A model generated the notes under the pieces. That model was not told where the DNA came from and searched no databases. It saw only the letters and a program-made list of their open reading frames with translations. Made by a program: the position numbers and the translations under genes. Of a stretch of 39,667 nucleotides of DNA, positions 17,550 to 22,918 are shown in pieces. Source of the stretch: Thermomicrobiaceae bacterium (GTDB lineage: Bacteria; Chloroflexota; Chloroflexia; Thermomicrobiales; Thermomicrobiaceae); assembly GCA_014874455.1 (NCBI GenBank), contig JADBJL010000019.1, positions 1 through 39,667 on the forward strand, given 5' to 3'. The stretch's first letter is position 1. Each line of letters begins with the position of its first letter.

Positions 17550-18812
17550 TCAGCGCGCGGCCGCGGCCAGCGCGAGCGTGACGTCCCAGGTCGCCGGGTC
17601 GCCCTCGTAGTCGGTGCGCTGGGCCAGGCACGAGGCCACGAGCGCCTGCGAGTCGAAGGCTCGCTCAGCTTCCTCCGCCTGAGCCAGAGTGGCATGGGTG
17701 GCCGGGTGGCGCGGGATGAAGACGGTACAGCAGTCGTCGTCCGGCACCCGGGAGATCGGCTCGGTGCCGATCTGAACCGCCTCGGCCAGGATCTCGTCCT
17801 TGTTGAAGCCCACCAGTGGGCGCAGCAGGGGCAGGTCGGTTACCGCTCCGATCACCCGCATGTTCTCGAGCGTCTGCGAGCTGACCTGCCCCAGGCTCTC
17901 CCCGGTCACCACCGCGCCAGCGCCCTGCTCGTAGGCGATCGCGGTGGCGATCCGCATCATCAGCCGCCGGTAGAGCACCACGCGCAGGGCCGGCTCGCTG
18001 GCCAGCGCGATCTCGCGCTGCGCGTCGCCGATCGGCACGATGCTGAGCCGCACTCCCGGCTGGTAGCGCCCGAGGTGCCTGGCGATCTCGACTACCTTCT
18101 CGATCGAGATCGGGCGGACGTAGGGGTAGGCATGGCAGTGTACCAGCGTCACGAAGCAGCCGCGCTTCATCATCCGGTAGGCCGCCACCGGCGAGTCGAA
18201 CCCGCCGGAGAGCAGGACGACAACGCGGCCGCTGACGCCGACCGGCAGCCCGCCTGGCCCCTTCACTGCCTCGCCGCTGACCAGCGCGCGGTCATAGAGG
18301 ATCTCCACCTGGTAGGTGACGCCGGGCGCGGTCAGGTTCACCGGCGCACCGGTGCGATCCTTGACGAACTGGCCGAGCATACGCTCGAGTTCCGGCGAGG
18401 TTAGCGGATAGCTCTTGTTCGTCCGCTTGACCCGCACGCGATAGCTGCCCGCTGGCGGCCCGAGGAGATCGAGTAACCGGGCCAACCCGTCCTGCAGTTC
18501 TTCCATCCGCAACCCGGTCTCGAGCGCCAGCGAGAAGTTGGCGATCCCGAAGACCCAGGCCAGCCGCTCGCGAACTGCCGGCCATACCTCGAGACCCGGG
18601 ATCGGGATCACCACCCGGGTGTTGCGCACCCGGGCACGCTCGTGGGGCACGTCTCGCAGCGCGTGCTCGATGTTCTGCACCAGCGTGTGCATAAACCAGG
18701 GGCGATTCGCCCCCTTGAGCGCGATCTCGTGCACCCGGGCCACGACGATCGGCTTGAACGCCTCTTCCGCTCGACCGTCTACGACCATGTCGTTCGGCAT
18801 CACCACACCCAC
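17550..18812 (-). CDS. thiI: tRNA 4-thiouridine synthase ThiI, without rhodanese domain
   Basis: 420 residues from a GTG at 18812 (an ATG at 18800 is possible; neither has a good ribosome site). Order: N-terminal ferredoxin-like region, THUMP domain (about 60-175), then the PP-loop ATPase domain opening with VVVLLSGGFDSPVAAYRMMKRG. Further AANH-type motifs are VTGESLGQVSSQTLENM and GFNKDEI, and a CC pair in PDDDCCTVFIPRHPATHA near the C-terminus. ThiI adenylates U8 of tRNA and sulphurates it, and in many bacteria supplies sulphur for thiazole synthesis. The C-terminal rhodanese domain of the E. coli enzyme is absent, as in most non-enterobacterial forms. It lies 85 bp after the selenoprotein gene on the same strand and may share its transcript. 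Confidence 0.95.
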   Translation of the reverse strand: MGVVMPNDMVVDGRAEEAFKPIVVARVHEIALKGANRPWFMHTLVQNIEHALRDVPHERARVRNTRVVIPIPGLEVWPAVRERLAWVFGIANFSLALETGLRMEELQDGLARLLDLLGPPAGSYRVRVKRTNKSYPLTSPELERMLGQFVKDRTGAPVNLTAPGVTYQVEILYDRALVSGEAVKGPGGLPVGVSGRVVVLLSGGFDSPVAAYRMMKRGCFVTLVHCHAYPYVRPISIEKVVEIARHLGRYQPGVRLSIVPIGDAQREIALASEPALRVVLYRRLMMRIATAIAYEQGAGAVVTGESLGQVSSQTLENMRVIGAVTDLPLLRPLVGFNKDEILAEAVQIGTEPISRVPDDDCCTVFIPRHPATHATLAQAEEAERAFDSQALVASCLAQRTDYEGDPATWDVTLALAAAAR

Positions 18813-18897
18813 TGTGAGCCAGAGGAGGGCCCTCCTCGACCCCTCGCCACGCCGCGTGCCGGCACCGGGTGAGCGAGCCGCCCCGCCGCGCAGGTGC

Positions 18898-19143
18898 CTA
18901 GGCCCCCAACCGCTCGCCGACCAACCGGATCAGCTCTTCCTCCTCGGGAAAGCGACCGGTCGCGTGCTTGGAGAAGACCAGCTCCCCGTCGACCGTGACC
19001 TCGAATCGTCCACCATCGGACGGCTTCAACGCAATCTCGCCGATATACTCTTCGAACCGATCCAGCAGCAACTCCACCACACGGGTGGCACGCTTCTGGT
19101 AGCCTCAGCTCGTGCAATATTCGATCCGAATACGATGCTCCAC
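18898..19143 (-). CDS. SelW-like (Rdx family) selenoprotein with in-frame UGA = selenocysteine
   Basis: 81 residues if UGA codon 13 (19107-19105) is read as selenocysteine. The GTG start at 19143 has a very strong AAGGAGGGAGGT site. The N-terminus reads IEYCTS-U-GYQKRATRVVELL, so UGA falls exactly on the second redox position of the CxxC/CxxU motif (Cys10, Sec13) of Rdx/SelW/SelT/SelH proteins. Downstream the frame continues with the family's conserved GGRFEVTVDGELVFSK and TGRFPEEEEL. The fold is thioredoxin-like with a presumed thiol-redox role in the cytoplasm. A SECIS-like hairpin follows the UGA. Starting after the UGA would leave a 60-residue fragment without the active site or a ribosome site. 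A nonsense mutation is possible but would have to have hit precisely the Sec position in an otherwise intact gene. Sec machinery (selA, selB, selC, selD) must be encoded elsewhere. Confidence 0.85.
19062..19099 (-). promoter_or_regulatory. Candidate bacterial SECIS element
   Basis: On the minus-strand RNA a hairpin begins 5 nt after the UGA. The apical stem CCACC (19088-19084) pairs with GGUGG (19078-19074) around a 5-nt loop CGUGU whose second base is G. Below it AGC (19094-19092) pairs with GCU (19069-19067), and CCAG (19099-19096) with CUGG (19065-19062). The loop starts 21 nt after the UGA. As I recall the bacterial SECIS consensus, it needs a small apical loop with G in its first two positions about 16-37 nt after UGA; this fits. 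SelB binding is inference. Confidence 0.65.
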
Positions 19144-19176
19144 GCTGACCTCCCTCCTTGAGCCTCCAAGCCAGAA

Positions 19177-19431: not shown

Positions 19432-19530
19432 GACGTTGGTGACCGCAATATTAGCCGTATAGATACCATTACCCATTTCGTTGCCCATTTCAACACGGAA
19501 GGCATCCAACGCTTACAGGCGGCTGGTCAG
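19432..19530 (+). pseudogene. Possible remnant of a transposase helix-turn-helix (IS630-like)
   Basis: The plus strand can be read as DVGDRNISRIDTITHFVAHF followed by NTEGIQRLQAAGQ. This resembles the helix-turn-helix segment of IS630-type transposases, which end in a xLVxRFNxxGLxxLxxxxGRG pattern. The stretch 19445-19500 is AT-rich and unlike its surroundings, and lies between two minus-strand genes. No start codon, catalytic domain or terminal repeats are seen, so only a fragment would remain. This is a resemblance from memory, not a search result. Confidence 0.3.
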
Positions 19531-20828
19531 CTACAGGTGAGCCCGATGGTATGGAAAGAACCGCGTGGGGCGCGCAATTCCTGCAGCCCACGCCCCAGCA
19601 GCGCTTGCCCATCCCACGTCACCTCGGCGAGCGGCGCAGCGAGCTGGATCTCGACCGGTAGACCGGCGAGCCTGATCTCCGCCACCTCGCGCATCACCCT
19701 CACGGTCAGCGTCCCGGCCGGCACACGGAAGTTCCTCACTTCCCCGGGCCGGAACTCCGACGGCACACCGAGCAGCCATGCCGCCGCACTCGCTGGCTGG
19801 CCGAACTCGAGTTCGAGCGGCGGGCAGTGGCTCGTCGCGACAGCGACCGTCGCCGTGCCGAAGGTCAGCCATCCCCCCACGGCCCCCACGACCACCACAA
19901 CCGCCCCAAGCGTCCCCAGCACCGCCTTCCCCGGGGCAGTGCCCGACAGCCAGCCGCGAAACTGCGCGATGACCGAGCTTAGGCCACCCGGGGCCGGTGC
20001 TGCGAGTGCCTGCTGCAGAGCCGTATCCAGTACGGCGCGGAGTTCGGGCGTCGGGAGGATCGGTGTCGCCGCTGGCAGGAGTTCGGCAGCAGTGGCTACC
20101 TTGCTCCGGGTGCGCCGGCAGACCTCGCACTGCTCGACATGCCGCGCGACGGTACGTCGGAGCTGGGGTGTGAGCCCGCTCGGCAGTTCCACCCCGTCCA
20201 ACAGACGATCGAGCTCGGCACAGTCGTGCCGGCCCCAGCGTGCCAGAAGCAGCGCCGTCAGGCTTTCCTCCAGCGCATCGCGCAGCCGGCTCAACCGCGT
20301 GTTGATCGCGCTGCGCCGGGCGCCGACGACCTGCGCCAGTTCGGCTGGCGAGAGATCGTGCCGGAGCGAGAGGTCGAGCAGCGCGTAATCGCTGGGGTTG
20401 AGGCCGCGCGCTGCCTGCCAGACCAGCTCCGCGAGCTCGGCTCGTCGCGCCACGTCCTCGGGCTGGGCCTCCAGTCCGCTCGCGGGGATCTCCGGCTCCC
20501 ACTCCTCGCCCTCCGACGTCGCGAGACGCGAGAACGCCGTTGTGCGCTGTCGACGCAGGCTGTCGATCGCCGTGTTGCGGGCGATCGTGAAGAGCCAGGC
20601 CCGCACTGAGCCCTGGACACGGCGAGCGCGCAGCCCGGTGAGCGCCTTGACGAACGTCTCCTGCGTGACGTCGGCTGCCACCTCGCGGTCACCGACGAGG
20701 CGCGCGACGAAGTCGTAGACGCGGTCGACGTAGCGCTCATAGAGCGTCGCGAACGCCTGGGCGTTCCCGGCGCGGAAACGGTCGACGAGTTGGTCGTCGG
20801 TGGCTGCACGGAGGTCGAACTCGGGCAT
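19527..20828 (-). CDS. ECF sigma factor fused to an anti-sigma-like zinc-finger/membrane half
   Basis: 433 residues from the ATG at 20828 (MPEFDLRAATDDQ); the frame stays open further upstream but the added residues are Arg-rich non-coding translation. Sigma region 2 lies at about 10-92 (AFATLYERYVDRVYDFV, then VTQETFVKAL and FTIARNTAIDSLRR). Region 4 lies at about 133-192 (LSPAELAQVVGARRSAINTR). Then comes a zinc-finger-like HVEQCEVC (His230, Cys234, Cys237) as in zf-HC2 anti-sigma proteins, a linker, one membrane helix (about 302-324) and a 109-residue outer domain with two cysteines (335, 432) that could form a disulphide. Sigma factor and membrane anti-sigma are normally separate proteins; here they form one chain, so activation may need proteolytic release. 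The outer domain is not recognised. Confidence 0.85.
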   Translation of the reverse strand: MPEFDLRAATDDQLVDRFRAGNAQAFATLYERYVDRVYDFVARLVGDREVAADVTQETFVKALTGLRARRVQGSVRAWLFTIARNTAIDSLRRQRTTAFSRLATSEGEEWEPEIPASGLEAQPEDVARRAELAELVWQAARGLNPSDYALLDLSLRHDLSPAELAQVVGARRSAINTRLSRLRDALEESLTALLLARWGRHDCAELDRLLDGVELPSGLTPQLRRTVARHVEQCEVCRRTRSKVATAAELLPAATPILPTPELRAVLDTALQQALAAPAPGGLSSVIAQFRGWLSGTAPGKAVLGTLGAVVVVVGAVGGWLTFGTATVAVATSHCPPLELEFGQPASAAAWLLGVPSEFRPGEVRNFRVPAGTLTVRVMREVAEIRLAGLPVEIQLAAPLAEVTWDGQALLGRGLQELRAPRGSFHTIGLTCS

Positions 20829-21140
20829 GGCCGCAGCGCGCTTCCTTCCTGGATCGTCTCTCGCGAAGCTCGGCGATCCTGGTGGTGATATCCTACTCTC
20901 GCTGCTCACCGAGCGTGTCCCCGCCCGACGATCGCGTCTCGCGGACGCGCAGCGGGCGACGCAAGCCTTCGGTTCGGATCGGGGTCGTAGAGCGACAGGC
21001 TCCGCACGGTTTCTGTTGGACGACCAGCGCAGCAGCGCGGCATTGTGCGCAGGACTTCCGACTCGCCGCACTCTCCGTACCGCGGTATCCTTGCCCACTC
21101 GGGAACGACGCATGGGTGTCCGTCGGCAGGAGGGCAGGCG
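20829..21140. other. Divergent intergenic region between the sigma fusion and aspartate kinase genes
   Basis: 312 bp with no gene that I can support. Weak -10-like boxes are present on both strands (TATCCT at 21086 plus; TAGGAT near 20888 minus) but neither has a matching -35. No lysine-riboswitch or T-box-like structure is apparent upstream of the aspartate kinase. Confidence 0.4.
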
Positions 21141-22556
21141 ATGCGGGTGATGAAGTTCGGGGGGACGTCAGTCGGCAACGCGGAGGCCATCGCCCAGACG
21201 GCCCGGATCCTGACCGAAGCCTACCGGTCGGGTGGCCCGGTCGTCGCGGTCGTCTCGGCGATGAGCGGCGTGACGAACCAGCTCCTGGCTTCCGCCGCGG
21301 CCGCCGCAGCCGGCGAGAGCGACGCCAGCGGCGAGCTGAAGCAAGAACTGCTCGACCGCCACCTCGCCGTCGTCGCCGAGCTGGTGCACGACCCGGAGCG
21401 CCGGTCGCACGTCTCCGCGAGTCTCGAAGCCCTGGCAGCCCGCTGCGCTCGACTGGTGGAGTCGGTGCACATCCTCGGCGACCTCTCGCCGAGGGCACAG
21501 GACTGGATCGTTTCCTTCGGTGAGCGGATGAGTTGTGCCGTCGTTGCCAGTGTGCTCGAAGAGAGCGGTATTCCAGCGGTCGCCGTCGAGAGCGACCAGG
21601 TGATCGTCACCGACGATGCCTTCGGCAACGCTTCCCCGCTGCTCGACCAGACGCGCGCCCGGGCACGAGCGCACCTGGGGCCGCTCCTCGCGGAGGGCAG
21701 ATTGCCTGTCGTCACCGGCTACTTCGGGGCAACGACGAGCGGGGCGGTGACGACATTGGGCCGAGGCGGTTCCGACTATTCGGCCTCGATCCTCGGCTAC
21801 GCGCTCGACGCCGACGAAGTCTGGATCTGGACGGACGTGGACGGCGTGATGACCGCCGACCCGCGCCTGGTGCCGGAGGCGCGCACGCTGCCGGCGATCT
21901 CGTTCGCTGAGGCGACCGAGCTGGCCTACTTCGGTGCCAAGGTGATCCACCCGCGTACGATGCAACCGGCTGCCGAGCGCGGCATCCCGATCTGGATCAA
22001 GAACACCTTCCGGCCGGAGTACCCCGGCACGCGCATCGGCCCTGATACGACGCTGGACGGCTCCGTCGTCAAGGCCATCACCGCTATCCCCGGCGTCAGC
22101 GTGATCACGGTCGAGGGCAGCGGGTTCCTCAGCGTCGCCGACGTGACCGCGCGCGTCTTCGACACGGTCGGCCAGACCGGTGTTAACGTCTACATGATCT
22201 TTCAGGCATCCTCGCAGCACTCGCTGGGCTTCGTCGTCCGCCAGGCCGATGCGGGGAAGGTGCTGAGCGCGCTGGAGCGGGAGTTCGAGTTGGATCTGCT
22301 CAAGGGCCGGGTACTGCGTATCTGGGAGGATCCGAAGCTGGCAGTGGTGGCGGTCGTCGGCGCCGGGATGCGGGGCACGCCCGGCGTGGCCGGCCGCGTC
22401 TTCCAGACCCTGGGCCAGAACCGGATCAACATCGTCGCCATCGCCCAGGGCTCGTCGGAGTTGAATATCTCGTTCGTCATCGCCGAGCACGAGGTGAGCC
22501 GCGCTGTGCCGATCATCCACGCCGCGTTCGGTCTCGGCAACGCGCGGGACGCGTAG
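21141..22556 (+). CDS. lysC: Aspartate kinase with two C-terminal ACT domains
   Basis: 471 residues from the ATG at 21141, which has AGGAGGG six bases upstream; the frame is open upstream but MRVMKFGGTSVG is the true N-terminus of the family. The kinase domain (about 1-300) carries KFGGTSV, GRGGSDYSASILG and TDVDGVMTADPR, then AYFGAKVIHPRTM. The ACT pair begins at about 315 (ITAIPGVSVITVEGSGF) and 400 (VAVVGAGMRGTPGVAG), ending INIVAIAQGSSELNISFV. The length and the second ACT resemble the ThrA/LysC-III type. It makes 4-phospho-aspartate, the first step to lysine, methionine and threonine, and is expected to be feedback-inhibited by lysine and/or threonine through the ACT domains. It is alone on its strand, so regulation cannot be read from neighbours. 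Confidence 0.95.
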   Translation: MRVMKFGGTSVGNAEAIAQTARILTEAYRSGGPVVAVVSAMSGVTNQLLASAAAAAAGESDASGELKQELLDRHLAVVAELVHDPERRSHVSASLEALAARCARLVESVHILGDLSPRAQDWIVSFGERMSCAVVASVLEESGIPAVAVESDQVIVTDDAFGNASPLLDQTRARARAHLGPLLAEGRLPVVTGYFGATTSGAVTTLGRGGSDYSASILGYALDADEVWIWTDVDGVMTADPRLVPEARTLPAISFAEATELAYFGAKVIHPRTMQPAAERGIPIWIKNTFRPEYPGTRIGPDTTLDGSVVKAITAIPGVSVITVEGSGFLSVADVTARVFDTVGQTGVNVYMIFQASSQHSLGFVVRQADAGKVLSALEREFELDLLKGRVLRIWEDPKLAVVAVVGAGMRGTPGVAGRVFQTLGQNRINIVAIAQGSSELNISFVIAEHEVSRAVPIIHAAFGLGNARDA

Positions 22557-22564
22557 CCTGGGAG

Positions 22565-22918
22565 CTACCGGGGACGCTTCTTGCGGAGGCGGAGGGCCCT
22601 CTTCGCCGCTCCGATCGGCCTCAATCCGCGCTGGCGAATGATCCCGCCGCCCCACCTGCGGCGAACCGGCACGCGGGCAGCGGACGACAACAGCCCCGCC
22701 GCATCAGGTGTGTCTGCCTCTGCCTCATCTGGCACCGGGGGCGCCGGGTCAGCCGCGGGCGACGTCGGCTCTGCCACTGGGTCGTGCTGATAGGACTGAG
22801 CAGAGCGGCGCTGCCGGCGCAGGGAGAGCAGGCTCGTAAGGATGATCAGCACCGGCAAGACCAGGAAACCACCGATGAAGAGGAGGTCACCCCACCCAAC
22901 TGGCCGCACGAGTGCCAT
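22565..22918 (-). CDS. Small single-pass membrane protein of unknown function
   Basis: 117 residues from the ATG at 22918, chosen for the GAAGGGG site upstream; a start at 22993 would add a Ser-rich leader without support. One strong membrane helix (about residues 9-33: GDLLFIGGFLVLPVLIILTS) is followed by a Pro/Ala/Glu-rich, probably disordered, cytoplasmic tail and a very basic C-terminus (RALRLRKKRPR). I recognise no domain. It ends 8 bp from the convergent aspartate kinase gene. The basic tail could bind nucleic acid or ribosomes, but that is speculation. Confidence 0.6.
   Translation of the reverse strand: MALVRPVGWGDLLFIGGFLVLPVLIILTSLLSLRRQRRSAQSYQHDPVAEPTSPAADPAPPVPDEAEADTPDAAGLLSSAARVPVRRRWGGGIIRQRGLRPIGAAKRALRLRKKRPR

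Follow-up and report, generated by a model that had tools for sequence, protein, structure and literature searches.

A predicted SelW-like selenoprotein gene with a conserved in-frame UGA codon in a Thermomicrobiaceae bacterium

The selW-like locus and its reading frame

In the stretch of DNA analyzed here (39,667 nucleotides of a Thermomicrobiaceae bacterium, referred to below as the window), profile matches and homologues revealed a selW-like gene of the Rdx family at 18898-19143 on the minus strand, which comprises 81 codons with a GTG start, a TAG stop and one in-frame TGA. The upstream region (19144-19165, minus) contains a purine-rich Shine-Dalgarno site (AAGGAGGGA) immediately 5' of the start codon (GTG at 19143-19141), and both the site and the start were conserved in relatives. 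The minus-strand sequence here is GGCTCAAGGAGGGAGGTCAGC-GTG, with the GTG at 19143, followed by 12 codons and then TGA at 19107-19105, which is the sole interruption before the frame ends with TAG at 18900-18898. With the TGA taken as a residue, the product reads VEHRIRIEYCTSUGYQKRAT..., and codon 13 (19105-19107, minus) is the predicted selenocysteine (Sec) of a conserved CxxU motif (C10-T-S-U13), in which the UGA occupies the second redox position and the Cys lies three residues earlier. The Rdx profile PF10262 matched residues 4-75, that is, across the UGA (E 5.7e-27, 94.2 bits against a cut-off of 22.6), and TIGR02174 also matched the product (E 7.1e-22, 77.5 bits against a cut-off of 34.2).

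These results bear out what an earlier note on this DNA had described from the letters of the sequence: a strong ribosome site and a GTG, 12 codons, a TGA and then an open frame (19143-18898, minus), with the body of an Rdx/SelW protein and the TGA placed exactly on the second redox position (CTSU). The same note expected standard annotation to yield a fragment of 60 residues, and the longest start-to-stop ORF 3' of the TGA was indeed 60 aa. Thus, annotation that stops at UGA would lose or truncate selW, while our analysis confirms the gene. Taken together, the locus very probably encodes an Rdx-family (SelT/SelW/SelH) selenoprotein of the SelW-like type, with the UGA at the second redox position read as Sec. 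We favored this reading because an intact UGA-interrupted frame, a conserved 3' hairpin and a full Sec pathway were all present.

The 60-residue frame could also be regarded as a protein in its own right, whose translation begins at an internal GTG (residue 22) 3' of the UGA and which lacks the redox motif; in-frame GTG codons do occur at residues 22 and 23. However, the best Shine-Dalgarno site precedes the upstream GTG (19143) rather than the internal ones, conservation extended across the UGA and included both the N-terminal strand and the CTSU motif, and an internal start would leave the conservation of the UGA without a reason. We consider such translation very improbable.

Conservation of the UGA codon

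Homologues of selW were present in 46 of the 61 genomes compared (the source genome and 60 relatives). The closest matches came from an uncultured Thermomicrobiaceae (98% identity), bacterium HR26 (93%) and Thermalbibacter longus (85%); these matches place the source organism within Thermomicrobiaceae (Chloroflexota). Exactly one TGA, and no other stop, was found in the homologue of all four genus members and of each of the 18 matching genomes of the family (the genus included). In addition, a scan of the genomes of 84,980 species yielded 47 selW loci, a few of them being the same records, which were distributed in Chloroflexota, Gemmatimonadota, Planctomycetota, Acidobacteriota, Myxococcota, Actinomycetota, Proteobacteria and others; the codon was TGA in every scan locus whose match spans the site (one locus, L093, does not span it). 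In the pooled non-redundant set, which covers the genus, the family, the order and other phyla, TGA occupied the aligned position in 82 loci. Eight more distant homologues of the same order contained Cys (six) or Arg (two) at this position.

By the standard bacterial code (table 11) alone, the selW frame ends after 12 codons, and the locus might then be a pseudogene or a sequencing error, with the UGA a true stop or a miscalled Cys codon (TGC or TGT) and the remainder in decay. Several observations argued against this: the same TGA recurred in 82 distinct loci, no TGC or TGT was found at codon 13 among the relatives of the genus or family, and the Shine-Dalgarno site and start were conserved. 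Moreover, substitution rates 3' of the TGA amounted to dN 0.08 and dS 0.86 between the window and Thermalbibacter, and to dN 0.31 and dS 1.31 between the window and a second relative (G008). As judged from these comparisons, synonymous changes predominate per site 3' of the TGA and dN/dS is well under 1, that is, this part of the gene is under purifying selection. Because the TGA is conserved and later substitutions are mostly synonymous, a pseudogene or error is practically excluded, and we assign it only a minute probability. Of the findings that the earlier note would have counted against a selenoprotein, neither a Cys codon nor gene decay was met with: independently assembled relatives, including the one with 98% identity, also carried TGA at codon 13, and relatives kept the gene with dN/dS well under 1. 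Our results point to a Sec form of SelW that has been kept throughout Thermomicrobiaceae.

Two further observations concern the diversity of these homologues. One genome (G050) contained two UGA-containing selW copies in tandem (L048:1483-2019) and a separate Cys copy elsewhere (L098). In two distant Rdx-like homologues (L104 and L106), Arg occupied the Sec position and no Cys preceded it, so that the redox pair is lost, which suggests a possible non-redox role for these proteins.

Selenocysteine machinery and its co-occurrence with the UGA form

The source genome is a 3.37 Mb draft in 114 contigs (99.9% complete, with a contamination estimate of 4.6%), and the window is contig 6. The whole set for Sec synthesis and insertion (selA, selB, selC and selD) was found in this genome, on contigs other than the window because the genome is a draft: a tRNA-Sec scoring 73.5 bits (cut-off 47), whose anticodon is tca according to ARAGORN, i.e. 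UCA; selA (E 1.4e-160) with no internal stop in frame; selB (E 1.5e-97), matched as two segments within one 659-residue frame, also with no internal stop; and selD (E 7.1e-112), the frame of which contains one TGA. Close relatives carried the same set. The selD gene (L017:1501-2433; C106:13932-14864 in the source genome) appears to be a selenoprotein gene itself, as its TGA lies in the active-site motif CAGU and the surrounding sequence reads ...ASCAGUAGKLGP; this is a known Sec position of SelD.

We also examined concordance between selB and the UGA form in 30 genomes that were at least 90% complete, our own included. All 24 genomes with the UGA form had selB over the cut-off, and three others (G026, G034 and G058) had neither. 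Among the genomes with selB, one (G012) had no selW homologue, and two (G022 and G031) had selW in the Cys form. The UGA form without selB over the cut-off was observed in less complete genomes, such as G002, G042, G046 and G047 (72-81% complete).

The earlier note had deduced that the organism decodes UGA as Sec, a claim to which absence of the machinery would have been contrary; with the tRNA-Sec, selA, selB and selD all present and the codon conserved, the claim is supported by the sequence data. Alternatively, a changed code might assign UGA to another amino acid, for example Trp. No support for this reading was found; on the contrary, the neighboring thiI gene ends in UGA as a stop, no internal stop interrupts selA or selB, the closest homologues without UGA have Cys and not Trp at the position, and the genome possesses tRNA-Sec. 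The chance of a changed code therefore seems negligible. Sec insertion would presumably follow the E. coli model, in which SelB carrying Sec-tRNA binds a hairpin and UGA is decoded as Sec (PMC1794560): SelB-GTP with Sec-tRNA(UCA) would bind the mRNA hairpin and selenocysteine would be inserted at the UGA. The product would be a protein of approximately 81 residues with a thioredoxin-like fold, whose CxxU pair may act, as in the family, as a thiol/selenol oxidoreductase.

A putative SECIS element

Directly 3' of the UGA we identified a putative bacterial SECIS apical stem-loop, CCACC-CGTGT-GGTGG (19074-19088, minus), with G at loop position 2 and the loop approximately 21 nt after the TGA. All five pairs of the apical stem were retained in 64 of the 82 TGA loci, and in 17 of 17 within the family; Cys and Arg homologues could form only two to three of the five pairs at the same place. 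Base pairs changed on both sides (G-C/A-U and C-G/U-A). In 49 loci thinned to <75% identity, 228 of 245 cells were paired, compared with 200.7 +/- 2.7 when the 3' arms were shuffled (10,000 permutations, maximum 212). The shuffle statistic is somewhat inflated by the kinship of the sequences, a weakness from which two other controls, the Cys homologues and a displaced arm, are free: when the 3' arm was shifted by one to four bases, the mean number of pairs fell from 4.63 to 1.3-2.9. Loop position 2 was G in 80 of the 82 TGA loci, and the residue encoded at the loop varies among Ser, Gly and Arg, yet the middle G of the codon is kept.

Single-sequence folding was dropped as evidence. The fold of the hairpin was within the range of shuffles (z -1.16), and a comparable hairpin followed 34% of the TGA triplets present in the window, which is GC-rich; therefore, the case for a SECIS was built on conservation only. 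The hairpin proposed in the earlier note was thus retained in part: the 5-nt loop, its G at position 2 and its distance of approximately 21 nt from the TGA all held, whereas the longer hairpin, which starts 5 nt 3' of the TGA, was poorly conserved. The value of the hairpin as evidence was weak when taken alone (34% of window TGAs, z -1.16) and came from the conserved apical stem. Outside the family the longer outer stem was poorly retained, and conservation across the order was limited to the 5-bp apical stem; an Rfam search over 2 kb around selW gave no match at E<=1. A G-containing hairpin directly 3' of the UGA fits a bacterial SECIS, and SelB binding is predicted. The selW alignment thus supplies a well-supported SECIS apical stem.

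Gene neighborhood and thiI

The next gene downstream of selW is thiI (tRNA uracil 4-sulfurtransferase; 17550-18812, minus; TIGR00342 E 1.8e-102), which starts at the GTG at 18812 or at a later one. On the same strand, thiI was located approximately 85-170 bp 3' of selW in the genus and in several further genera of the family; in others the distance was approximately 650-780 bp. The order selW-thiI was conserved in much of the family (relatives L021-L038 and L051-L054), the two genes being immediate neighbors in several genera. Within the flanks examined, selW had no thiI match nearby in any other family of the order. Either a functional link or simple inheritance may underlie this order. Because it is conserved, it hints at a link in which SelW might cooperate with the persulfide relay of ThiI, perhaps by reducing it, and connect selenium use to tRNA 4-thiouridine formation, a proposal that we regard as speculative and unlikely. 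The conserved order could give a handle on the function of bacterial SelW.

Several other features were noted around the gene. A perfect palindrome, GAGGAGGGCCCTCCTC, lies in the selW-thiI gap just 5' of the thiI start (18822-18837, minus). Between selW and an aspartokinase-like gene lies a gene (19527-21113, minus) for an ECF-type sigma factor (528 aa) whose C-terminal extension is long; apart from the window genome, only the relative with 98% identity (L051) was seen to carry it next to selW. An ORF on the minus strand (21168-22655) with matches to the DNA 5' of selW in many relatives was rejected as a family-less selW neighbor, being the antisense of the aspartokinase-like gene (21045-22556, plus).

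Comparison with known SelW-like selenoproteins

SelW-like proteins are among the commonest bacterial selenoprotein families and have been described since 2005-2006, so that the selW gene reported here is a further member of a known family. The Sargasso Sea data set contained 48 SelW-like genes (PMC1088965, 2005), the GOS data set contained 427, more than for any other selenoprotein family there (PMC2398784, 2008), and few Cys homologues were reported in Sec-using organisms (PMC1794560, 2006). As far as naive annotation is concerned, the earlier note rightly called the selenoprotein "hidden"; the novelty that it implied is not supported for so well known a family (PMC1794560, PMC1088965, PMC2398784). 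The gene is an ordinary member of a widespread, long-described bacterial family, with which it shares membership of the Rdx family, the CxxU motif, a UGA with a 3' SECIS whose small apical loop contains G, the Sec machinery, and the predominance of Sec over Cys forms in Sec-using organisms. It differs from reported SelW-like genes in its host, a member of Thermomicrobiaceae (Chloroflexota), and in its adjacency to thiI. In the open literature searched, there was no explicit report of SelW in Thermomicrobiaceae, and open selenoprotein literature on Thermomicrobium and Sphaerobacter contained nothing on SelW.

Solved Rdx structures (3dex, 2fa8, 2obk and 2p0g; PF10262/TIGR02174) were homologous over the whole domain. 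The closest of them, 3dex, is a SelW protein with Cys at the position of the UGA found here. Mammalian selenoprotein W (2npb), which has a CxxU site as well, belongs to the same family but is distant (E 0.0015). In eukaryotes, as in mammalian SelW, the SECIS is located in the 3' UTR, whereas the hairpin described here lies inside the coding region.
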